From Arbacia lixula (Eukaryota > Echinodermata > Echinoidea > Arbacioida > Arbaciidae): a stretch of DNA of 64,000 nt. The first letter of the stretch is position 1. Each line of letters begins with the position of its first letter. The notes below the pieces were generated by a model that was given only the letters and a program-made list of their open reading frames with translations, was not told where the DNA came from and made no database searches. The DNA lies in the NCBI GenBank assembly GCA_963669155.1, contig OZ022580.1:19553736-19617735 (forward strand). Direction: 5' to 3'. This document shows, one piece after another, positions 5,634 to 56,837 of this stretch. The translations under genes were made by a program, and so were the position numbers.

Positions 5634-14310
<8,677 letters not shown>

Positions 14311-14497
14311 TATGGTCTTTTGGGCAAATTGGCGATTCGTTTGGCTCCTTATTCCCAGCTCAGATCAGCTCAAATCGGCCTCTTTCCATCAATGAGAAAT
14401 TAATTGACGGAAAGTCTGCCTGCCATAAGACCTTTCACCTACACAGCCTGGGACCGGTACGTGTACCGTGTACGTAAGTTTATACACAGTACGTTGT
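14311..14497 (-). promoter_or_regulatory. TRIM23-side half of a split bidirectional promoter
   Basis: Only 178 bp lie between the TRIM23 start codon and the 9-bp duplication (14489-14497) of the big transposon. With the element and one duplication removed, TRIM23 and TRAPPC13 start codons are about 264 bp apart and diverge. Promoter activity is inferred from geometry. Confidence 0.6.
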
Positions 14498-17400
14498 GGT
14501 AGGCAATGTTTTGGAACATCTAGGGGTATGCACACGACCCTGTACGATGACACGCTGACGATAAGTTACTCCCCTCTAATGAATATGCATTATACCAAGG
14601 CATGTGTGTACAATGCTGTACCGATACAGAGCACTCATACTGTATTGACAAACGGACTCGCATCCATTGATGTAGTGCATTCTACATGTTCCAAGCTGCA
14701 TGCTACATGTTCCAAAATTTCAATTTCTTTATATATCGTATTGTTTTAGCTGTCATACGCGCCAATACTCGCATCTATTGATGTAGTGCATTCTAGATGT
14801 TCCAAGCTGCATGCTACATATTCCAAAATTTCAATTTCTTTATATATCATATTGTTTTAGCTGTCATACGCGCCAATACTCGCATCCATTGATGTAGTGC
14901 ATTCTAGATGTTCCAAGCTGCATGCTACATGTTCCAAAATTTCAATTTCTTTATATATCGTATTGTTTTAGCTGTCATACGCGCCAATACTCGCATCTAT
15001 TGATGTAGTGCATTCTAGATGTTCCAAGCTGCATGCTACATGTTCCAAAATTTCAATTTCTTTATATATCGTATTGTTTTAGCTGTCATACGCGCCAATA
15101 CTCCCATCTATTGATGTAGTGCATTCTAGATGTTCCAAGCTGCATGCTACATGTTCCAAAATTTCAATTTCTTTATATATCATATTGTTTAGCTGTCATA
15201 CGCGCCAATACTCGCATCTATTGATGTAGTGCATTCTACATGTTCCAAGCTGCATGCTACATGTTCCAAAATTTCAATTTCTTTATATATCATATTGTTT
15301 TAGCTGTCATACGCGCCAATAATCGCATCCATTGATGTAGTGCATTCTAGATGTTCCAAGCTGCATGCTACATGTTCCAAAATTTCAATTTCTTTATATA
15401 TCGTATTGTTTTAGCTGTCATACACGCCAATACTCGCATCTATTGATGTAGTGCATTCTAGATGTTCCAAGCTGCATGCTACATGTTCCAAAATTTCAAT
15501 TTCTTTATATATCGTATTGTTTTAGCTGTCATACGCGCCAATACTCGCATCCATTGATGTAGTGCATTCTAGATGTTCCAAGCTGCATGCTACATGTTCC
15601 AAAATTTCAATTTCTTTATATATCGTATTGTTTTAGCTGTCATACGCGCCAATACTCGCATCCATTGATGTAGTGCATTCTAGATGTTCCAAGCTGCATG
15701 CTACATGTTCCAAAATTTCAATTTCTTTATATATCGTATTGTTTTAGCTGTCATACGCGCCAATACTCCCATCTATTGATGTAGTGCATTCTAGATGTTC
15801 CAAGCTGCATGCTACATGTTCCAAAATTTCAATTTCTTTATATATCGTATTGTTTTAGCTGTCATACCCGCCAATACTCGCATCTATTGATGTAGTGCAT
15901 TCTACATGTTCCAAGCTGCATACTACATGTTCCAAAATTTCAATTTCTTCATATCATATTGTTTTATTGTTTTAGCTAACACATAGGTACCAACACTTGC
16001 ATCCAATAATGTAGTGCATTCTAGATGTTCCAAGCGGCATGCTACATGTTCCAAAATTTCAATTTCTTCATATCATATTGTTTTAGCTGTCATACGCGCC
16101 AATACTCGCATCTATTGATGTAGTGCATTCTAGATGTTCCAAGCTGCATGCTACATGTTCCAAAATTTCAATTTCTTTATATATCGTATTGTTTTAGCTG
16201 TCATACCCGCCAATACTCGCATCTATTGATGTAGTGCATTCTACATGTTCCAATCTGCATGCTACATTTTCCAAAATTTCAATTTCTTTGTATATCGTAT
16301 TGTTTTAGCTGTCATACCCGCCAATACTCGCATCTATTGATGTAGTGCAATTCTACATGTTCCAAGCTGCATTCTACATGTTCCAAAATTTCAATTTCTT
16401 TATATATCGTATTGTTTTAGCTGTCATACCCGCCAATACTCGCATCTATTGATGTAGTGCATTCTACATGTTCCAAGCTGCATACTACATGTTCCAAAAT
16501 TTCAATTTCTTCATATCATATTGTTTTATTGTTTTAGCTAACACATAGGTACCAACACTTGCATCCAATGATGTAGTGCATTCTACCTGTTCCACGCTGC
16601 ATGCTACGTGTTCCAAAAATTTCAATTTCTTTATATATCGTATTGTTTTAGCTGACGTAAGCGCCAATACTCGCATCTATTGATGTAGTGCATTCTAGAT
16701 GTTCCAAGCGGCATGCTACATGTTCCAAAATTTCAATTTCTTCATATCATATTGTTTTATTGTTTTAGCTATCACATAGGTACCAACACTTGCATCCAAT
16801 GATGTAATGCATTCTACCTGTTCCACGCTGCATGCTACGTGTTCCAAAATTTCAATTTCTTTATATCTTATTGTTTTAGCTGACGTACGCGCCAATCGTT
16901 GCATCTATTGATGTAGTGCATTCTACATATTCCAAGCTGCATGCTTCCAAAAATTTAATTTCTTTATGTCGTATTGTTTTAGCTGACATATGTACCAATA
17001 CGTGCATCCAAGTTGATGTAGTGCATTCTACATGTTCCAAGCTGCATGCTACATGTTCCAAAAATTTAATTTCTTTATATCGTATTGTTTTAGCTGACGT
17101 ACGCGCCAATCGTTGATGTAGCTGACATATGTACCAATTGTATCTTATTGTTTTAGCTGGCATACGTACCAATAAGCAGATAAGTGCTTCCAATGATGTA
17201 GTGCATTCTACATGTTCCAAGCTGCATGTTAAGTTCATTTAAATGTCACCTTTTCTTTCCTTTCTCCCTCCTTTCCATTCACCTCCCCCTCTGTTCTTCT
17301 CCTCTTGTCTCTGTTTTGTCTCCTACCATTCCTCACTCCACCTTTCCCTCCCTCTCCTCCCCATCCGTATTTCCATTCTCTATTCTTTCCTTTTCCTTAC

Positions 17401-17735
17401 TCCACTCTCCCCTTCCCCATTCTTTTTCTTACCCCTCTCCTCCAGTCTCTGTCGCTCTGTCACCTTTCCCTTTTCTTCTAATACATGTAGCTTTCTACTT
17501 TCTTTCCTCTTTCCTCCTCTTCTGTCAGTCCTCCTCTTCTCCCCTACGCATCCCCCTCACTTTCTCTCTCTCCCCTGCTCTCTGGCCCCTCCATTTCTCT
17601 TTTTGTCTCTCTAATCATTCTTTTTGTATGGGACATTATATGTATATTTGTCAAAACAAAAATATTACATGAAATCATGATGAAAGTGTATTTATTGCAC
17701 GTATCTCTTCCTTGATGTGAAGTCCACACATTTGA
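14498..17735. repeat. Left inverted arm of the foldback element
   Basis: Outer unique segment 14498-14655, 111-bp array 14656-17235, pyrimidine-rich tract 17236-17600, and inner segment about 17610-17735 that pairs with about 21970-22100 on the right. The pyrimidine tract is absent from the right arm. Confidence 0.85.
14656..17235. repeat. 111-bp tandem array, left arm, about 23 units
   Basis: Units begin near ACTCGCATCTATTGATGTAG (14656, 14767, 14878 and on). The outer units are near-identical; from about 15950 inward they diverge, shorten and rearrange. A period of 37 codons keeps frames open, giving spurious ORFs. There are no unique spacers, so it is not a CRISPR array. Confidence 0.95.
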
Positions 17736-17802
17736 TAGACACTCACAATTTTTAGCGGCTGCAATGAAAGAGTGGATTCGTGAGTTTGGTAATTATTACC
17801 AT

Positions 17803-18257
17803 TGTCTCGCCTGAACGAAGTTCGGTAGAGACCTAGTAATCACTTTTCCTGTTAGTCTGTTGGTCTGTTACAAACATGTTAACGTTTTTCTTTAACTTGC
17901 TCTCATTTCTTTATTTCTGTATCAATTGTGATCAAACTTTGTACAGATGATCCTTGGGTAATACCACATGTGTCAATATGAGGATGATGGGGTCAAAGGT
18001 CATCTCGTGGTCAAAAGGTCAAATGATATGAGGCCATGTGCATCCTTTTTTCTCAAAGTTTTCGTTTGACTTGCTTTCATTTCTTTATTTCCGCATCAAT
18101 TGTGATCACACTTGGTACAAATTATATTAGGTTAATACCACATGTGTCTCTTCATGAAGCTGATGGGGTCAAAGATCATCTCGGGGTCAAAAGGTTTGAA
18201 AAAAATCTTTGAAAAAAAACCTAGCACTGTTTATCGATTGCGAAATCAGGCGAGACT
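17803..18257. mobile_element. TGTCTCGCCTGA-ended repeat element inside the foldback element
   Basis: Starts TGTCTCGCCTGA and ends TCAGGCGAGAC, an inverted pair like the TGTCTCGCCCAC family at 35023, 36444 and 55628. Two degenerate internal units each include TTTCTTTATTTC..ATCAATTGTGATCA and GGTCAAAGGTCA-like words. Probably a diverged relative of that family. Confidence 0.6.
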
Positions 18258-18523
18258 CGTGGATCACGAACCACCTTGTACATTTTGTCATCCCGCCCTC
18301 TCTTTACACAATACCTTTAAACTAAGTGACTTTTCTTTGGATCGGTCAATAATTATTACATAATGAACAGGACTACTTTCTTCTTTTCCAGTTACTCTTG
18401 CCATCAGTGTACATCCGATAAATTAGGACTTGGTGTACAGTCAGTTGTTTATGCATACTGTACTGATTATACCAATCCACAAAAGAGTACAAATTCACCA
18501 TATTCATCTGCTGAAATGACCTG

Positions 18524-18660
18524 GGGCCATATTCATGGAGCTGGTATTCACGAAAACTTACGAGTACTAGTTACATTCTAAATTCTTTCCTTACTTTAGA
18601 GTTGATACAGGGCTACTCTAAGTCACTAGTAAGCATTTCTCTCATCCTCTCAGTGACTGC
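18524..18660. mobile_element. Harbinger-like end (left) flanked by CTG
   Basis: GGGCCATATTCATGG follows CTG at 18521-18523; an inverted counterpart, CATGAATATGGCCC followed by CTG, ends at 19953. The pair may bound one 1.43-kb element enclosing part of the LINE remnant, or be the outer ends of two rearranged copies. Confidence 0.45.
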
Positions 18661-18867
18661 CGATGTGCCAGTATTGTGAGAAGAACGGCTGAATTGGAGA
18701 AACTTATGGTTGCAGTGCGTAGAAAACGTGTGTTCTTCCTTTTTTGGATTAGAGGAAGAGGAGGAACCCATTGGACATATTCAGTGTTTTGTTTTAAATG
18801 TGCACAAAATAGCTGCCCAGGTAGCTCTCTTTTTATAATACGAAAAACATCAATCGTTGTCCTGTTC

Positions 18868-20340
18868 TAAATACTGTGTAAAAGGGAGAATTACCAATTT
18901 TACCAATAGAAGTAAGAGAGGCAATAAAACAAATGAAGGAAATAGAGCACTAGGGCCTGATGAAGTAACAAGTGACATTATTAAAGCTGGCGGGGAGGAA
19001 ACAGTTGGACAATCGACAAACCTGTTCAGCCAGATACTGTAGGAAACGAAAATCACAAGCAAATGGAAGAAAGCAAAGATTATTCTTCTGCACACGAAAG
19101 AGAAGGCAGACATAAAAAAAAACTACCGACCGATCAGCCTACTATCTCATACGTATAAAATCTTCACCAAAGTAATTCAAAACCGGCTTAAGATGATATT
19201 AGACCAGAACCAACCTAGGGGCAAACGTGATTTAGAGGAGGATTTTCAAAAACAGATCATCTACAATCAATCAATCAATCAATCAGCTCATTGGAAAGTC
19301 CAACGAGTACCAGGCAGCTCAAGCTTTGTCTATGCTTCGTAGACTTCCAAAAAGCATTCGACTCCATAGAACATTAGGACATGATCGATGCTCTAAGAGA
19401 TATAGGAATTGAAGAAGGTACATTCGTATCTTGGAAGACATATATACACAGAAGTTAAAATAAATAAAGGTGTCAGACAGGGGGACACATTATCACCCAA
19501 CATTTTCACAGCAGCATTCCATGACGTGTTTATAAAGTCCAACCTTTAAGGAAAAGGAACTGATTTTAACCTCTGTGCAAGATATGGAAGTTGCGAAGTC
19601 TGAACATTCAAAGCAATTGAGTTGGCTTGCAAATGCATAATGACTAACTTTGAAACAGCAGAGGATATAAGAATATACCATCACCAGTTAGAGAAAGTCA
19701 GCAGTTACAAGTACTTGGGCCAAATCTTAAAAATGGAGGATAATGCAAGAGAAGGGGTATTGACAAGGATTAAAGGAGGCTGGAGATGTTTTAATAAGTA
19801 TAGAGAATTTTAAACTGACTTGAAAATATCACTCGCAATGAGGAGAAGGATATTTGACCAGTGCATACTAGCCTAGTCAGTTACTAAAATTGCATGTAGC
19901 TGAATGTGCTTTAGTAACTTACTAGGCTTAGTAAGGTTTCATGAATATGGCCCCTGGTCTACAACTAAAGAAACGGAACAGAAATTGAGAACACAAAGAG
20001 CTGTGGAAAGAGGAATGCTCAATTTAACGTTACTTGACAAAGTGAAGTACACTTACACATACGGCAGAAAAAGAAGGTCAAAAATATTGTAGTAAACATA
20101 TAAAGAGATGAAATTGAGATGGGCAGGACACTTTAGAACACAAGACAGCAGATAGACCAAGAAACTCACAGAATGGCAACCAAGAAAATGCAAGCGAAGA
20201 AGAGGTCGACAAAAAGAAGGTGGAGGGACGAAATATCATCACACACAAACACAGCAACATGGAACAGAATGACAGCAAATAGAAGCAAATGGAAACTGAT
20301 TGAGGAGGGCTTCATCCAACAATGGTTGAACAATGTCTGA
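18868..20340 (+). pseudogene. Decayed non-LTR retrotransposon reverse transcriptase
   Basis: Translations in shifting frames give GPDEVTSDIIKAGGEE (about 18950), then NYRPISLLSHTYKIFTKVIQ and NRLKMILDQNQP (about 19120-19215), and further on EQKLRTQRAVERGMLNLTLL (about 19977-20036). These are typical of the fingers/palm and C-terminal parts of LINE reverse transcriptases. Stops, frameshifts and a missing YADD region make it dead. A short Harbinger-like end (about 19873-19956) interrupts it. Confidence 0.82.
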
Positions 20341-20350
20341 TGAATGAGTG

Positions 20351-21860
20351 TGTTGTATTTTGACCATGTTCTCTTAGATCATTTCTTGATAACTATGTTA
20401 AGAATTTGTGTTGTATCTATCAAAATCTTCAAACATTATGTTATAAGTATAATGTTATTTTGTCCATGTCAATATCATAGTAAGCGCATGAAGGCATTTC
20501 TATAGGCCCTTTACCAAAATGATATAGATCATTTTTGTTGTTGTTTTCATCTTCATGCTTTCAATCAATGATATCTTTGGATTTGTCAAACTTGTCGGCC
20601 AAACAGAGATTCGTGAGGATAGTTTGTATGTTGGTGGCCAAGTTGCAAGTCTTTGGATTTAATAAGTCTGGCAATAAGGACTAAGCCTTCTTCCCTGTAG
20701 ATATACACACACACACCTCTACAAAGAGAACATTACCATTAGAGCCAAACTGTCCTTGTATCAATTTAATACTTCCCTTGTAAATTTCTTTATTTACATA
20801 TTTAAAGAAACCACCTTGTTATATCTAGATTACCAACTTCTAAGGAATATGCCTGCACTGTTTATATTAGATGTCTGTAGTGGAGTATATACACATTATC
20901 AACAGTGTTACATGAACCACTTTTTAATATATTAACTGGTACAACATAAAATGAGCCATTTTCACCATCTCGTAATTATACTGGCATATTAGTAGCATTA
21001 TTTCTGATCACATTAGCACCATTTCTTCACCTCCAAGCTCGTACCATCCCCATTTGTTTTCCAGCTGTACGCCAAAGCGTATAACTCACTAAACTTTGCA
21101 TTTGAGGTTCAGACATAGGCTTGTCTTTACAGACCAACATGTATAGCTTGAAAATATCCATGGTGATTACTGATCATTCTGCTACCTAACCAGCTAAAAC
21201 AGTGAGTATAATCTTAACTATGCAACCAGAACATGGCTCCCAACTTTCATACTAGGACAATTTACTTACAAACTAGATGACTGTGTTTTGACGATGGTAT
21301 TGTAAAACAAATGTATGCAGAATTATGTCCATCACTACATGAACAATAGGAACAACTTTTAGTTTCTACTAAGATGTTAGCCTACACTTTCTAGACTGTG
21401 GAGTATATGGATGCAACCGAGTCTGTGAACATTTACGTCTGGCAATAAAGATTAAGGTCTCTGCCCTATGTGCCCCCTTGCAGAGAGCAGGCAGGGAAGT
21501 AGGCTTAGTCCTTATTGCCAGAATTAGATCTTTACACACTGAGTTTTGCTCATGCATCCCAAAGACTCGAATCTAGGCCACCAACAGACAAACTATCCTC
21601 ACGAATCTCACTTTGGCAGACATGTTTTCCAAATTCAAAGATATCATTGATTCAAAACATAAGGATGAAAGCAACAACAAAAATGATCAATGTCATTTTG
21701 GTTAAGGACCTATAAAATGCGCTTAGTCTGATATTGCTATTGACAAAATAACATAATACTTATAACATAATGTATGTACATTATAATCGATAAATACAAC
21801 ACAAATTCTTAAGATAGATATCAAGACGTGATCTGAGAGAACATGGTCAAAATACAATAC
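20351..21860. repeat. Nested inverted repeat, about 360-bp arms
   Basis: The segment 20351-20705 recurs in inverted, diverged form at about 21490-21860: TTGTATTTTGACCATGTTCT against its reverse complement, and CAATAAGGACTAAGCCTTCT against AGTAGGCTTAGTCCTTATTG. The 790-bp spacer has no recognised gene. It looks like an older foldback insertion inside the larger one; no target duplication is clear. Confidence 0.75.
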
Positions 21861-21969
21861 ACCACGACAGTTATGTATTTCAGTTGCAAAAAAAAATGAA
21901 TTGTGAGCCAGTGTATATTTGAAAGAATCTAGTGAAAAAAAAATATATTTTTTTTTTAGTGTTTCGGGT

Positions 21970-23309
21970 ATGTGGACTTTGAATGCCCTGATACATGCAA
22001 TAAATACGCTTTAATCACAATTCCATGTAATATATCATTTTTTGTTTTGACTTGTCACATATAATTACCCATACAAAAAGAATGAGCAGGGAGACGAAAA
22101 GATAAATGGAGAGATATAAAGAAATTGAAATTTTGGAACATGTGGCATGCAGCTTGGAACATCTTGAATGCACTATATCAATAAATGTAACGATTGGCGC
22201 GTACGTCAGCTAAAAAACAATTTGATAATTTATAAAGAATTGCACTACATCAATAGATGCGAGTATTGGCGCGTATGACAGCTAAAACAATACGATATAT
22301 AAAGAAATTGAAATTTTGGAACATGTAGCATGCAGCTTGGAACATCTAGAATGCACTACATCAATGGATGCGAGTATTGGCGTGTATGACAGCTAAAACA
22401 ATACGATATATAAAGAAATTGAAATTTTGGAACATGTAGCATGCAGCTTGGAACATCTAGAATGCACTACATCAATGGATGCGAGTATTGGCGCGTATGA
22501 CAGCTAAAACAATATGATATATAAAGAAATTGAAATTTTGGAACATGTAGCATGCAGCTTGGAACATGTAGAATGCACTACATCAATAGATGCGAGTATT
22601 GGCGCGTATGACAGCTAAAACAATATGATATATAAAGAAATTGAAATTTTGGAACATGTAGCATGCAGCTTGGAACATCTAGAATGCACTACATCAATAG
22701 ATGCGAGTATTGGCGCGTATGACAGCTAAAACAATGCGATATATAAAGAAATTGAAATTTTGGAACATGTAGCATGCAGCTTGGAACATCTAGAATGCAC
22801 TACATCAATAGATGCGAGTATTGGCGCGTACGCAGCTAAAACAATACGATATATAAAGAAATTGAAATTTTGGAACATGTAGCATGCAGCTTGGAACATC
22901 TAGAATGCACTACATCAATAGATGCGAGTATTGGCGCGTATGACAGCTAAAACAATACGATATATAAAGAAATTGAAATTTTGGAACATGTAGCATGCAG
23001 CTTGGAACATCTAGAATGCACTACATCAATAGATGCGAGTATTGGCGTGTATGACAGCTAAAACAATACGATATATAAAGAAATTGAAATTTTGGAACAT
23101 GTAGCATGCAGCTTGGAACATGTAGAATGCACTACATCAATGGATGCGAGTCCGTTTGTCAATACAGTATGAGTGCTCTGTATCGGTACAGCATTGTACA
23201 CACATGCCTTGGTATAATGCATATTCATTAGAGGGGAGTAACTTATCGTCAGCGTGTCATCGTACAGGGTCGTGTGCATACCCCTAGATGTTCCAAAACA
23301 TTGCCTACC
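21970..23309. repeat. Right inverted arm of the foldback element
   Basis: Reverse-orientation match to the left arm: inner segment about 21970-22100, 111-bp array about 22115-23152, then the 158-bp unique end whose rightmost base is 23309. A minus-strand frame of 73 codons here is the mirror of one at 14530-14749; both are repeat artefacts. Confidence 0.88.
22115..23152. repeat. 111-bp tandem array, right arm, about 9 units
   Basis: Same unit as the left array in the opposite orientation. Outer units are almost identical to the outer left units, suggesting recent homogenisation between arms. Confidence 0.94.
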
Positions 23310-23395
23310 GTACGTTGTTTATTTACGTGACTGTGTATTTTGTATTGATAGATGGCGCTAGAGCTAAAAATACATTGCATACATACAACCCAATC
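23310..23395 (+). promoter_or_regulatory. TRAPPC13-side half of the split promoter, with an overlapping uORF
   Basis: Between the right target duplication (23310-23318) and the TRAPPC13 ATG there are 77 bp. An upstream ATG at 23352 opens a 27-codon frame that runs past the main start and ends with TAA at 23433-23435. It would matter only if transcription starts upstream of 23352. Confidence 0.5.
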
Positions 23396-23438
23396 ATGGA
23401 TGTCGTCAGAGAAAAAGAGCAGCTGCTGTCGATAAAAG
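23396..23438 (+). CDS. TRAPPC13: TRAPPC13 exon 1
   Basis: Residues 1-14, [14 protein letters not shown], exit phase 1, donor GTATTT. The layout matches the human N-terminus, which reads LLALK just before VMRLTKP. Confidence 0.9.
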
Positions 23439-32400: not shown

Positions 32401-35400
32401 TTTAGTGAAAGTAATGATTATTTGCACCAAAATGTAGAAGTAAATGCAGAAATACTTAATTTATCATCAGACTATTGATGTTTAGGCAGCAAAATACTGA
32501 ACTTAAGGCTCAAAAGATGGCGGATCTGATTCAGGAGTTCTAAACCAAACTATTCAACCAAAGGGTCTGGCTAGAGTAGACTAGTCATTGTCTATTTCTT
32601 CCTCAGCTCACCGACAGATTGAGAAAAGAGCAGAATTATGCATTGACTAGTCTTAGAGTAGAAGACTCTATATGTCAGTTGGAATTTTAAAAAAATGTCC
32701 AACAGCGTGGAAACTAGACTAGTAGGTATCTAGAGCTGTACACCTGCATGTATCAGCCATACATTGAAAAAATGCATTTTGTTGTAATTGCATAAAGCAT
32801 GTACTGCGAATGTCGAAAATCATAAGTATTCATAAACTAATGATGATATTTGGATGCATGCCATAGCATGTTTCTTAGAAAGAGTTCAGTGGTAATACCA
32901 TGTGGAGGTAAAATACCAAATATTTTGTGACAGAATATTGTAAACTTTTATTTCAGCAGTATCTTGCTATTGTAATTAGGAGGTCGTGATTTAGAGCATG
33001 AAGATGTTGTTCATTAGATTTACGTGTTACTGTATGTTGTGTAATAATACTGCTACTGTGATTCTATTTTGTACTACAACTTTAAACACTGTCACTAATC
33101 CAATCCTCCTCTTGTTGTGTATATGAAATGGATTCATTTTCCTACAAATCAAGTATTTGTATGTAAAGGTCCTAGAATAATTCAGTTATGTACATGTTTG
33201 GTTGAACTGCTGCCCCATGGGTAGCAGGACAAAAATAGTCTTGATAAGAAGCTGGTCTTTATGGACAGGTGCACTGACAATGAAAGCTGTATATAGGACC
33301 ATTCTATAGAAAGGTTGTCTTCATATAGCAGATTTCACTGTACATGCAAACTTTTTCTTTTGCATGGATTCAGGTTGAGTGGCGATCTGTATAGACAGGT
33401 GGTCTTTCTTGACACGATTTCACTGTCCATACAACCTGCTTTGAAGAAAATGAGTGGTCTTTACAAACAGTCTTTGCGGCCAGCTGGTTTTTCTATAACA
33501 GGGTGGTGCTAACCAAGCTGTTCTTAAGTTAAGAATGACTTTATGCATGACTGGTGACCCTTTCTTGTCCTAAATCAGTTTTTCAATGGTCTAAATTCAT
33601 GTCAGGTAGAGTTCAAATCTGATGTTTATGTATTAAAATTCTTGTTGCATACAATTTTCTGAATACAAAGTTTGTGATTTGTTTAATTTGATTAGGATTG
33701 TTGGAGATTAACTCCTTTTTTAAAGCAGGAACAAATTGGGGTATCTCATTTAGGACAAGAAGGGGTCACCAGTCATAAAGTCGTTCGTAGCTTACAAACA
33801 GCTTGGTGAAACACCTCCTAGAAGTACTGCATATGCAAACTGCTTTGAACGGTTTCATGTGAAGTGGTCTTTATAGACAAGTTGTGGTCTTTTCAGCTAG
33901 GTTTGACTCTTATCTCTTTTCTCGCTTGGTGTTTGTTTCAGTCTGATGAGGTTTATCTGGAGGCTCAGATCCAGAACATCACCCAGTCTCCCATGGTGAT
34001 GGAGAAGGTATCCTTAGAGCCAGCTGCGGACTACATGGTGGAGGAACTCAACTCACTGCAAGACAGCCAGGAGAAAAAGTAAGCAGACTAACTCTCTATC
34101 TCTCGTTTCATTCTGCTCCCTTGGTCTCTTCATTAATGTTTCCTCTTCTTCATTCTTGTTCTTCCTTATCTGCTTGCTTCTATATGTTCTCATCTCCTGG
34201 TTCATAATCATCATGTTCTTCTACCCCTTCTTTTCCATTTTTGTTCCCTTCTGTCCTCTCATTCTGCTTTTATTTGCCTACAGCATTGGTTTATCATCCT
34301 CGTCTTCCTATTTTGGATCATATCATCAACTTCCATGTCTTGTCCTATTCACTCTCTTTTCTGCTTCATCATATTTGATATTTCCTTTCCCCTACCCTTT
34401 ATCCATAACCTTATTTGTATTTCCCTCACCCTTCTACCCTTTCCCATTCTCTTCTTCTTTCTCTGCTTCTGCTTATTATAATATAATCTTCCTGCTCCTT
34501 TATGACCCCCCCCCCCCCTTCCCCTTTCATCCTCTCCTTCTTGCATTGCTTCTTGATTACATGAGGACTTGTATATTTGTGTTAATTTTTGAAGACAACT
34601 GATCTTTGGGGGATTCCTGTACCTCAACCCAATGGACACTAGACAGTACCTTTACTGCCTCAAGGCCAAGACCCAGTCCGGCGCTGACCGGCCGTCCCTC
34701 ATCAAGGGGGTGTCCAGCATCGGCAAGCTGGACATCGTCTGGAAGACTACTCTGGGCGAGAAGGGCCGTCTGCAGACCAGCCAGCTGCAGAGAATGGTCA
34801 GTCGTCATGACAATGAGTGCAGTTTCTACAATGTTATTGAACACATTATGTGTCTGTATAAACACCATGTTATGAATATTCATGTCTGATTGGGTTTAAG
34901 TCATGACAAAGTTTGAATCATTCCCTTGAAATGGTCCATACTCCATAGTAAGTTAAGAGTAATGTACAATAGACTGGTCTACATTACTTTAAATCAATGT
35001 ATTTCAGCCTATTCGATATTACTTTTTGTCTCGCCCACCGGAGGTGAAGGCGAGACTAAGGGATCCAAATGGCGTCCGTCCGTCGTCCGTCCGTCGTCCG
35101 TCCGTCGTCCGTCCGTCGTCCGTCGTCCGTCGTCCGTCGTCCGTCGTCCGTCACAAATGTTAAAGTTTACCTGCAAGACTCTCTTATGATCCATAACTTG
35201 GCAACTGTTACAGCAATGGCAGCCACACTTGGTTGATAGAAGCACTAGGGGTATCTTCATGTTATGGTTTTGTCAGAGGTCATGTGATGATGTCAAAGGT
35301 CATTTGAGGTCATATATTAAAGAGTATGTGCAAGACTCTCTTTTTCTATGTTAAAGTTTACCTGCAAGACTCTCTTTTGACAAATAACTTCACATAGGTT

Positions 35401-38400
35401 GCTTGGATTACAACCTAACTTGGGTCATAGATGCACTGGGGGTACCTTCATGTTATGGTACCGTTGGAGGTCACAGGATAAGGTCAAAGGTCATTTGAGG
35501 TCATACGTTAAAGTTTACCTGCAAGACTCTCTTTTGACAAATAACTTCACATGGGTTGCTTGGATTACAACCTAACTTGGGTCATAGATGCACTGGGGGT
35601 ACCTTCATGTTATGGTGCCGTTGGAGGTCACAGGATAAGGTCAAAGGTCATTTGAGGTCATACGTTAAAGTTTACCTGCAAGACTCTCTTTTGACAAATA
35701 ACTTCACATGGGTTGCTTGGATTACAACCTAACTTGGGTCATAGATGCACTGGGGGTACCTTCATGTTATGGTGCCGTTGGAGGTCACAGGATAAGGTCA
35801 AAGGTCATTTGAGGTCATACGTTAAAGTTTACCTGCAAGACTCTCTTTTGACAAATAACTTCACATAGGTTGCTTGGATTACAACCTAACTTGGGTCATA
35901 GATGCACTGGGGGTACCTTCATGTTATGGTGCCGTTGGAGGTCACAGGATAAGGTCAAAGGTCATTTGAGGTCATACGTTAAAGTTTACTTGCAAGACTC
36001 TCTTATCACACATAACTCATCACATGTTGCTACAATGGCAATCAAACTTGGATGATGGATGCACTGGGGGCACCTGCATGTAATTGTGCTGTAAGAGGTC
36101 ACATGATAGGGTCAAAGGTCATTTGAGGTCATACATTAAAGTTTACTTGCAAGACTCTTGGTGAAGGCTTCCTAACTTGTGCACAGAATTGTGTGAGCAT
36201 GTGTGAGCATTACTGATGTAGATTTAGGCAAACATTACTCATGCACATTTATGCAAATTTATTCAAAGTCACTATTTTGCACCTGATTTTGATGTTGTCT
36301 ACAATTCTTTTGCGTAGCAACGGAGATCGCGATATTTCTGGTTATTTTCGCAAGTGGGCGAGACACAATATTGCTAATGCCTTGTCTTGGATTAGTGGTG
36401 ACAGATAGTGTAGTAAAAATGTTTACATTGCATACTGTCCCAATTTTTGTCTCGCCCACCGGAGGTGAAGGCGAGACTAAGGGATCCAAATGGCGTCCGT
36501 CCGTCGTCCGTCCGTCGTCCGTCCGTCGTCCGTCGTCCGTCCATCGTCCGTCGTCCGTCACAAATGTTAAAGTTTACCTGCAAGACTCTCTTATGATCCA
36601 TAACTTGGCAACTGTTACAGCTATGGCAGCCAAACTTGGTTGATAGAAGCACTAGGGGTATCTTCATGTTATGGTGTTGTCAGAGGTCATGTGATGATGT
36701 CAAAGGTCATTTGAGGTCATATATCAAAGAGTATGTGCAAGACTCTCTTTTTCTATGTTAAAGTTTACCTGCAAGACTCTCTTTTGACAAATAACTTCAC
36801 ATAGGTTGCTTGGATTACAACCTAACTTGGGTCATAGATGAACTGGGGGTACCTTCATGTTATGGTACCGTTGGAGGTCACAGGATAAGGTCAAAGGTCA
36901 TTTGAGGTCATACGTTAAAGTTTACCTGCAAGACTCTCTTTAGACAAATAACTTCACATAGGTTGCTTGGATTACAACCTAACTTGGGTCATAGATGCAC
37001 TGGGGGTACCTTCATGTTATGGTGCTGTTGGAGGTCACAGGATAAGGTCAAAGGTCATTTGAGGTCATACGTTAAAGTTTACCTGCAAGACTCTCTTTTG
37101 ACAAATAACTTCACATGGGTTGCTTGGATTACAACCTAACTTGGGTCATAGATGCACTGGGGATACCTTCATGTTATGCTGCTGTTGGAGGTCACAGGAT
37201 AAGGTCAAAGGTCATTTGAGGTCATACGTTAAAGTTTACCTGCAAGACTCTCTTTTGACAAATAACTTCACATAGGTTGCTTGGATTACAACCTAACTTG
37301 GGTCATAGATGCACTGGGGGTACCTTCATGTTATGGTACCGTTGGAGGTCACAGACAAGTCTTTTGCGTAGCAACGGAGATCGCGATATTTCTGGTTATT
37401 TTCGCAAGTGGGCGAGACACAATATTGCTAATGCCTTGTTTCTCATATGTGCCTTTTGCAACGCAAAATGTTCTATGCACTACAAAATCAATTCATCTGT
37501 GCTAAGACTTGCTCCCCCAAAAATATAATGTCAAATGGCTTTAGGCTCATAATAGTTATAGAGTCTTCTATGATGAACAAATATCTTGAACCTTTTGAAT
37601 CTAGTGATGTTAAGCCAATATGTGGTATACCGGTGTAGAACGAATACAGCCTGCCCTGACATTCTGGGTGTTCTTCTCTCGTGTGCATGCAGGCACCAGG
37701 GTATGGAGACCTAAAGCTGAGCATAGCCGAGATTCCCGACAGCGTGCCTCTGGAGAAACCCTTCCAGCTGACCTGCAGAGTCACAAGCTGCTGGTAAAAC
37801 CCCCTGTTCCACTTTGCCACTTTCACTACGATTTTGATATTTTGTTCAGTTTCAGAGGATTTGGTTGAAAATTGGCCGATCTGGGCCCCGTAACATAAAG
37901 GCTTGCGATCAATTGCAACTTTGAAAGACAAATTCTGATTGGTTACTGGTCAGTCTTTTGAACAAAAAGCGCATGCAACAATGGTGTTGATTGGCCATTG
38001 CCATTTTGTGATTGATCGCAAACCTTTATGTTACAGGGCCCTGGACCAAGTGTGTTAAGGCCCTGTTTCACTACAGCGATTCTGATTCAGATCTATTCCA
38101 CACTATCAAATGGGCAGATTGCGGCGTAAGTGAAGATATTGTCTTTTGATTGGTGTAAAGCGGGGTAGAGCGGCCCAGCAGCTGGATCACAGCAGTGTCC
38201 TGGTTTACATCCCATCCTGATGCTTCTCTTACAAAGCTGAGAAAGACCTTTTTTCAATCCTTCCCAAGCTCCTTTCTAAATTCATTCCTATTTTTCCTCC
38301 TCTTGCGATGTAAGAAACCTAAAAAAATATTGAAAATTATGCAAATTGAATTTATACAAATTTGATATTCCAGTTTCATTATGGGCATTTGATAAGATTT

Positions 38401-55627: not shown

Positions 55628-56837
55628 TTTTTGTCTCGCCCACCGGAGGTGAAGGCGAGACTAAGGGATCCAAATGGCGTCCGTCCGTCGTCCGTCCGTC
55701 GTCCGTCCGTCGTCCGTCCGTCGTCCGTCGTCCGTCCGTCGTCCGTCGTCCGTCGTCTGTCGTCCGTCACAAATGTTAAAGTTTACCTGCAAGACTCTCT
55801 TATGATCCATAACTTCACATGGGTTGCTTGGATTACAACCTAACTTGGGTCATAGATGCACTGGGGGTACCTTCATGTTATGGTGGCGTTGGAGGTCACA
55901 GGATAAGGTCAAAGGTCATTTGAGGTCATACGTTAAAGTTTACCTGCAAGACTCTCTTTTGACAAATAACTTCACATAGGTTGCTTGGATTACAACCTAA
56001 CTTGGGTCATAGATGCACTGGGGGTACCTTCATGTTATGGTGCTGTTGGAGGTCACAGGATAAGGTCAAAGGTCATTTGAGGTCATACGTTAAAGTTTAC
56101 CTGCAAGACTCTCTTTTGACAAATAACTTCACATTGGTTGCTTGGATTACAACCTAACTTGGGTCATAGATGCACTGGGGGTACCTACATGTTATGGTGC
56201 TGTTGGAGGTCACAGGATAAGGTCAAAGGTCATTTGAGGTCATACGTTAAAGTTTACCTGCAAGACTCTCTTTTGACAAATAACTTCACATAGGTTGCTT
56301 GGATTACAACCTAACTTGGGTCATAGATGCACTGGGGGTACCTTCATGTTATGGTACCGTTGGAGGTCACAGGATAAGGTCAAAGGTCATTTGAGGTCAT
56401 ACGTTAAAGTTTACTTGCAAGACTCTCTTATCACACATAACTCATCACATGTTGCTACAATGGCAATCAAACTTGGATGATGGATGCACTGGGGGCACCT
56501 GCATGTTATTGTGCTGTAAGAGGTCACATGATAAGGTCAAAGGTCATTTGAGGTCATACATTAAAGTTTACTTGCAAGACTATTGGTGAAGGCTTCCTAA
56601 CTTGTGCACAGAATTGTGTGAGCATGTGTGAGCATTACTGATGTAGATTTAGGCAAACATTACTCATGCACATTTATGCAAATTTATTCAAAGTCACTAT
56701 TTTGCACCTGATTTTGATGTTGTCTGTTTAAAGTTGCTTATTTGTTTGTTTCAGTTCTCTTTTGCGTAGCAACGGAGATCGCGATATTTCTGGTTATTTT
56801 CGCAAGTGGGCGAGACACAATATTGCTAATGCCTTGT
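55628..56837. mobile_element. TGTCTCGCCCAC element copy 3
   Basis: Same orientation and ends as copies 1 and 2, but over 18 kb away in the LRRC40-CLPP spacer. It has a GTCC/CGTC microsatellite at about 55680-55767, then tandem units with five perfect AGGTCAAAGGTCA sites, each followed by TTTGAGGTCA. The right 250 bp matches copy 1, plus a short extra segment at about 56724-56755. Confidence 0.86.

Follow-up and report, generated by a model that had tools for sequence, protein, structure and literature searches.

A window of 64,000 nucleotides from the sea urchin Arbacia lixula (contig OZ022580.1 of assembly GCA_963669155.1, G000:C5 in our numbering) contains two divergent genes, TRIM23 and TRAPPC13, and between their start codons a foldback transposon. 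The left gene, on the reverse strand, carries RING, B-box and two Arf pieces (Pfam), the domain set that names TRIM23, and the right gene, on the forward strand, carries the middle and C-terminal domains of TRAPPC13 (Pfam). In both genes the first coding exon joins the second in frame with GT and AG signals, and the next exon of TRAPPC13 begins VMRLTKPAF. The start codons begin at 14310 (TRIM23) and 23396 (TRAPPC13). After removal of the element and of one copy of its 9-bp target-site duplication (GTACGTTGT), exactly 264 bp remain between them, 187 bp upstream of the TRIM23 ATG and 77 bp upstream of that of TRAPPC13 (86 bp with its duplication copy), in agreement with the value of about 264 bp proposed in a first-pass annotation of this DNA. 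That annotation had also described both genes as apparently intact; the sampled exons are open, and "intact" covers these exons only.

TRIM23 and TRAPPC13 are head-to-head neighbours in vertebrates. They are placed at one locus in a table of a genome-wide association study (GWAS) in buffalo (PMC10725422). Judged by their titles, the papers listed in a literature search included none on a bidirectional promoter of TRIM23 and TRAPPC13. The 607-Mb assembly (590 contigs) was searched for an empty-site allele with the joined flanks (620 nt), which matched only the two halves of this locus. Upstream of the TRAPPC13 start, AGATGGCGCT at 23350-23359 contains an out-of-frame ATG (23352), and it recurs beside two other insertion sites of the family described below. 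The window also contains three blocks in which a CGTCC-type microsatellite precedes tandem units of 157 or 191 bp (including 35073-37354 and 55678-56581), two of which are located between the TRAPPC13 middle-domain and C-terminal-domain exons.

Table 1. Coordinates of the foldback element, its parts and the adjoining host sequences in the window.
Feature	Positions	Strand	Remarks
Reading frame holding TRIM23 RING exon	13458..13829	-	Pfam
TRIM23 first coding exon	14242..14310	-	joins in frame to next exon
Residual host DNA, TRIM23 side	14311..14497		187 bp, one duplication copy counted in
Left 9-bp target-site duplication copy GTACGTTGT	14489..14497		adjoins outer end of element
Foldback transposon	14498..23309		8,812 bp; inverted ends, and genome-wide recurrence of ends and pairs
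Left outer end	14498..14655	+	158 bp, same sequence as right outer end
Left array	14656..17110	+	111-bp units, about 22
Core	17111..22235		about 5 kb; shared with the recent set of sister copies (about 95-99%); intact reading frame not seen
Reverse-transcriptase remnant within core	19043..19342	+	RVT_1, E 8.9e-6, below Pfam cut-off
Right array	22236..23151	-	111-bp units, about 8-9
Right outer end	23152..23309	-	158 bp, same sequence as left outer end
Right 9-bp target-site duplication copy GTACGTTGT	23310..23318		adjoins outer end of element
Residual host DNA, TRAPPC13 side	23319..23395		77 bp
TRAPPC13 first coding exon	23396..23438	+	joins in frame to next exon
Reading frame holding a TRAPPC13 middle-domain exon	33849..34079	+	Pfam

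An 8.8-kb transposon of self-complementary repeat DNA, bounded by a perfect 9-bp duplication, had been claimed for this gap, and both its limits and its structure were borne out exactly. The two copies of the duplication are perfect and lie directly outside the complementary ends. The arms are 98-99% complementary in their best-matching stretches (14878-15788 with 22241-23151, and 14498-14974 with 22833-23309), and each is composed of a 158-bp outer domain followed by 111-bp tandem units, which is the arrangement of long terminal inverted repeats (TIRs) with internal tandem repeats that characterizes foldback elements. No intact gene was seen in the core, whose longest wholly internal stop-free frame (156 codons) lies in CT-rich low-complexity DNA, and the reverse-transcriptase piece, for which four frames were scanned with Pfam, is degenerate. 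Neither the element nor the rest of the window contains any N. The element is a foldback-type, non-autonomous transposon.

The first 22 nt of the element have 92 matches in the genome with two mismatches or fewer (47 forward and 45 reverse), compared with none for the reversed control. When a pair was defined as neighbouring, head-facing ends less than 15 kb apart, these ends formed 38 pairs spanning 0.36-11.8 kb, and the family has at least 38 paired copies. A core probe of 701 bp gave 40 listed matches, a lower bound because 40 of the 146 candidates were scored. Thirty of the listed matches are at least 250 bp long, 21 of them with 95-100% identity (the window copy included) and nine with 85-92%, the other ten being pieces of about 125 bp. 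All but one of these 30 longer matches fall within head-facing pairs, and nine of the 38 pairs are without a core match at this lower-bound count. Ten copies, two of them with runs of N, were readable across; per arm they have about 4 to 44 units, and their cores occur in both orientations. A perfect 9-bp duplication was present in 13 of the 16 pairs whose ends were read, so that dispersed copies with target-site duplications, as expected of the foldback class, make up the family. Of the other three, the pair at 12.4 Mb of C16 has a near-match with one base of difference in length, that at 3.7 Mb of C11 runs into N, and the 2.7-kb coreless pair at 10.9 Mb of C16 has none. Dating by arm divergence was tried and dropped, the mean identity of the outer 158 nt being 0.977 within copies and 0.973 between copies.

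Long inverted repeats are difficult to assemble, and the element could in principle be an assembly artefact. This explanation is hardly credible: the element is free of N, the same boundaries recur in 38 pairs, with duplications specific to each site in 13 of the 16 read, and the flanks match this locus only.

Two other observations concern the family. A 2.7-kb copy (L045:5001-7659, G000:C16:10920229-10922887) consists of two arms with neither core nor duplication and is perhaps a recombinant. Three pairs of 8.0-10.6 kb without core match are located within 0.27 Mb (G000:C3:20340565-20613879, at 20.34, 20.55 and 20.60 Mb); they possibly represent another subfamily or an autonomous form, and might hold a transposase.

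The base composition around the insertions was analysed in the flanks of 16 sites (31 flanks in the first bins and 20 in those beyond 1.49 kb). The observed/expected (o/e) ratio of CpG was 1.13 in the 0-100 bp bin, with both duplication copies counted, followed by 0.84, 0.85, 0.70, 0.67 and 0.61 (1.0-1.49 kb), and farther out by 0.53, 0.52 and 0.47 (last bin, 3.7-5 kb). Within 150 bp of the 16 insertions the pooled ratio was 1.07, compared with 0.50 (standard deviation 0.08) in 5,000 windows of 300 bp drawn at random from beyond 1.5 kb, all of which fell below 1.07. CpG within 150 bp exceeded that of the site's own 1.0-1.49 kb flank at 16/16 sites (Wilcoxon P 1.5e-5), the excess at the C11 site, measured on one side, appearing only in the third decimal or beyond. 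It is the family signal that is extreme, and not the TRIM23/TRAPPC13 site alone, since 11-14% of the 300-bp host windows in the 64-kb stretch are at least as CpG-rich.

Such a peak might reflect survival instead of targeting if insertion were random and selection then let copies persist in CpG-rich, gene-rich DNA. Only the copies surviving in one assembly are visible, and their cores are of differing age (85-99% identity to the window copy), as this would have it. However, the peak is narrow, with 1.13 in the first 100 bp and 0.61 at 1.0-1.49 kb, and gene starts are where insertion should harm most, which makes survival alone a distinctly improbable explanation.

A short motif was also found near the insertions. 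At 3/16 sites AGATGGCGC is found no more than 31 bp from the insertion, and it is absent from 90,350 bases of distant flank; GATGGCG lies within 40 bp at 3/15 sites (window site excluded; 0.037 expected, P 8e-6). The motif was picked after being seen, and its enrichment is therefore a lead only; it resembles a YY1-type start-site motif.

The genes beside other copies were sought in 1,082 frames from the flanks of 15 copies (on each side as much as 5 kb for ten of them and 1.5 kb for the other five). The 40 best frames by codon score, direction ignored, and ten further frames picked by eye were scanned with Pfam; gene names beyond Pfam families at these sites are our own recognition. Among the 40 codon-score frames, matches over the gathering cut-off were MCM_N, DER1 and sulfatase, all pointing away from the element, and two Tc1-type mobile-element matches at one site; those below it included WD40 (away) and MAPKK1_Int (toward). 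The eye-picked frames over the cut-off that point away were ThiF (UBA2-like), LRR_9 (SNRPA1-like) and, as before, DER1, MCM and sulfatase; matches to SNase and MFS_1 did not reach it, and two of these frames had no match. DARS2-, KDM8- and zinc-finger-like exons spotted by eye gave no Pfam match over the cut-off and were not counted. The nearest domain-identified gene points away from the element at 6/6 sites, window included (binomial 0.016). The distance from the element to the apparent start codon is 86 bp for TRAPPC13, 187 bp for TRIM23, 216 bp for DER1, 389 bp for sulfatase and 1,118 bp for the ThiF/UBA2-like gene. In the DER1 case (L037/L038, G000:C6:18419149-18428536) a sister copy lies next to the first coding exon of a DERL1-like gene, with WD40-type exons pointing away on the other side; here the family has interrupted another divergent pair, DERL1-like/WD40, the WD40 match being below cut-off. 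Literature searches returned only a cattle GWAS for DERL1, TBC1D31 and bidirectional promoter, and nothing for transposable element insertion into divergent gene pairs.

The 9-bp duplication and the position of the insertions indicate that the family probably belongs to the Mutator superfamily. Mutator target-site duplications are 8-11 bp long (PMC6446971), and those of 9 bp in 13 of the 16 pairs are within this range. In Tm1 (PMC3169594) and Tetris (PMC4079207), two foldback families also placed in Mutator, the arms carry tandem repeats and the duplications are 8-10 bp long. Tetris, from Drosophila virilis, resembles the present family, by description and not by sequence comparison, in its long TIRs with an outer domain followed by tandem units in variable number, its non-coding middle, its 8-10 bp duplication, the lack of an autonomous copy and the suggested link to Mutator. 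It differs in the length of the units (about 220 bp, compared with 111 bp here) and in having fewer of them per arm (up to about 44 here), and the growth of its arrays has been tied to beta-heterochromatin (PMC4079207), whereas the copies described here are in DNA rich in CpG and, at several sites, adjoin genes. Tm1, a Mutator/foldback family of Meloidogyne, resembles the present one in its TIRs of composite structure, which include tandem repeats, and in duplications that are mostly of 9 bp, but its units are of 13-15 bp and a transposase-encoding member is known (PMC3169594), whereas none was found in this family. Maize Mu elements share TIRs of hundreds of bp or more and a 9-bp duplication, and they insert at or slightly 5' of transcription start sites, a closeness to gene starts that the present family would probably have too; they are plant elements with TIRs of about 215 bp, and the excerpt consulted mentions no 111-bp arrays (PMC2774946). 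Rehavkus also combines a 9-bp duplication with a minisatellite, which in that case precedes the 3' TIR, and has TIRs of 26-400 bp and a PHD-finger transposase in arthropods and annelids (PMC6446971). In the present family the arrays are inside both arms.

The foldback elements of the Galileo/P superfamily make duplications of 7-8 bp, compared with 9 bp here. The TU elements of sea urchin are, like this family, foldback elements of an echinoderm, and differ by description in having short repeats and duplications of 8 bp. PMC4079207 also mentions a foldback element of sea urchin. Another superfamily that makes 9-bp duplications, in which foldback arms had evolved, is a rather unlikely origin. 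The foldback form does arise in different superfamilies, for example in Galileo of the P superfamily (PMC3573991, PMC4079207), and IS1595-type transposases occur in this genome; against this, the Mutator/foldback family Tm1 (PMC3169594) is matched both by the long arms with their repeats and by the 9-bp duplication, found in 13 of 16 pairs. Mutator-type transposase genes are also present elsewhere in the genome (PF10551, 12 matches, seven over cut-off), two of the matches being in long open frames (G000:C12:1208547-1208831, 938 aa, and G000:C12:19726546-19726827, 727 aa).

The TRIM23/TRAPPC13 site is most likely typical of the family and the result of a target preference for gene starts, not a one-locus accident, because the other examined copies are also in CpG-rich DNA and, at several sites, beside first coding exons. 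The whole reading, that a foldback element, likely mobilised by Mutator, inserted at a CpG-rich gene-start region of the kind that its family prefers, is assigned a probability of about 0.7. The earlier interpretation, that a single transposon entered a compact gap between divergent genes and duplicated 9 bp there, is maintained and extended, the element being one of dozens and its site having the appearance of a preferred target. A Mutator-type transposase would act in trans on the non-autonomous element, which would insert by cut-and-paste and leave the 9-bp duplication behind; the target would be the DNA between TRIM23 and TRAPPC13, an accessible start region rich in CpG, with open chromatin as the probable cue.

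Several results weigh against this reading. None of the 12 MULE (PF10551) or 24 IS1595 (PF12762) matches in the genome lies inside the 38 pairs, many of whose interiors are unread, and the superfamily assignment is accordingly only probable; 34 of these 36 matches were compared with the pairs by script, the two left out being on C154, which has no pair. Close to the insertions GpC o/e is elevated as well (1.22 vs 0.99), less than CpG, and part of the CpG signal may therefore be composition. The sub-cut-off MAPKK1_Int match faces the element, as does Tim29, over the cut-off at 4.8 kb, the second gene at the SNRPA1-like site. Two of the six orientation sites rest on eye-picked frames, without which the count is 4/4 (0.06), and 10/16 sites gave no host gene identified by a Pfam domain over the cut-off in the flank sequence scanned.

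With regard to the consequences for the two genes, both would be expressed from the residual halves of the gap; if expression of both has persisted, the halves are either sufficient by themselves or assisted by the arms. TRAPPC13, which retains just 77 bp of host DNA in front of its ATG, is the more likely of the two to be affected. This short remnant would also suit an element that replaces the lost promoter, with outward TATATAAAG boxes of the 111-bp units driving TRIM23 and TRAPPC13: TATATAAAG points outward at all of its 14 positions in the left arm and at all eight in the right, and never inward. But the arms are complements, so this bias counts once and not twice, TATATAAAG was sought after the unit had been read and with no shuffle control, and the units start 158 bp inside the element, all of which makes promoter replacement quite unlikely. 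Very unlikely, too, is a broader proposal: a host factor bound to promoters, or DNA free of nucleosomes next to the AGATGGCGC-type start-site motif, would guide the family, divergent housekeeping promoters would be hit regularly, and the arms, with their outward TATA boxes, would maintain expression of the separated genes; if true, the family would both target and replace promoters.

Targeting of gene starts, the preferred reading, turns a single insertion into a testable rule, that of an animal foldback family with a tendency to insert at gene starts. Maize Mu is known to insert at such positions, and the same question has become measurable for animal foldback elements in a sequenced genome. 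TRIM23/TRAPPC13 and DERL1-like/WD40, two divergent pairs separated by roughly 9 kb of inserted DNA, offer natural experiments on the question whether a compact bidirectional promoter has to remain whole.

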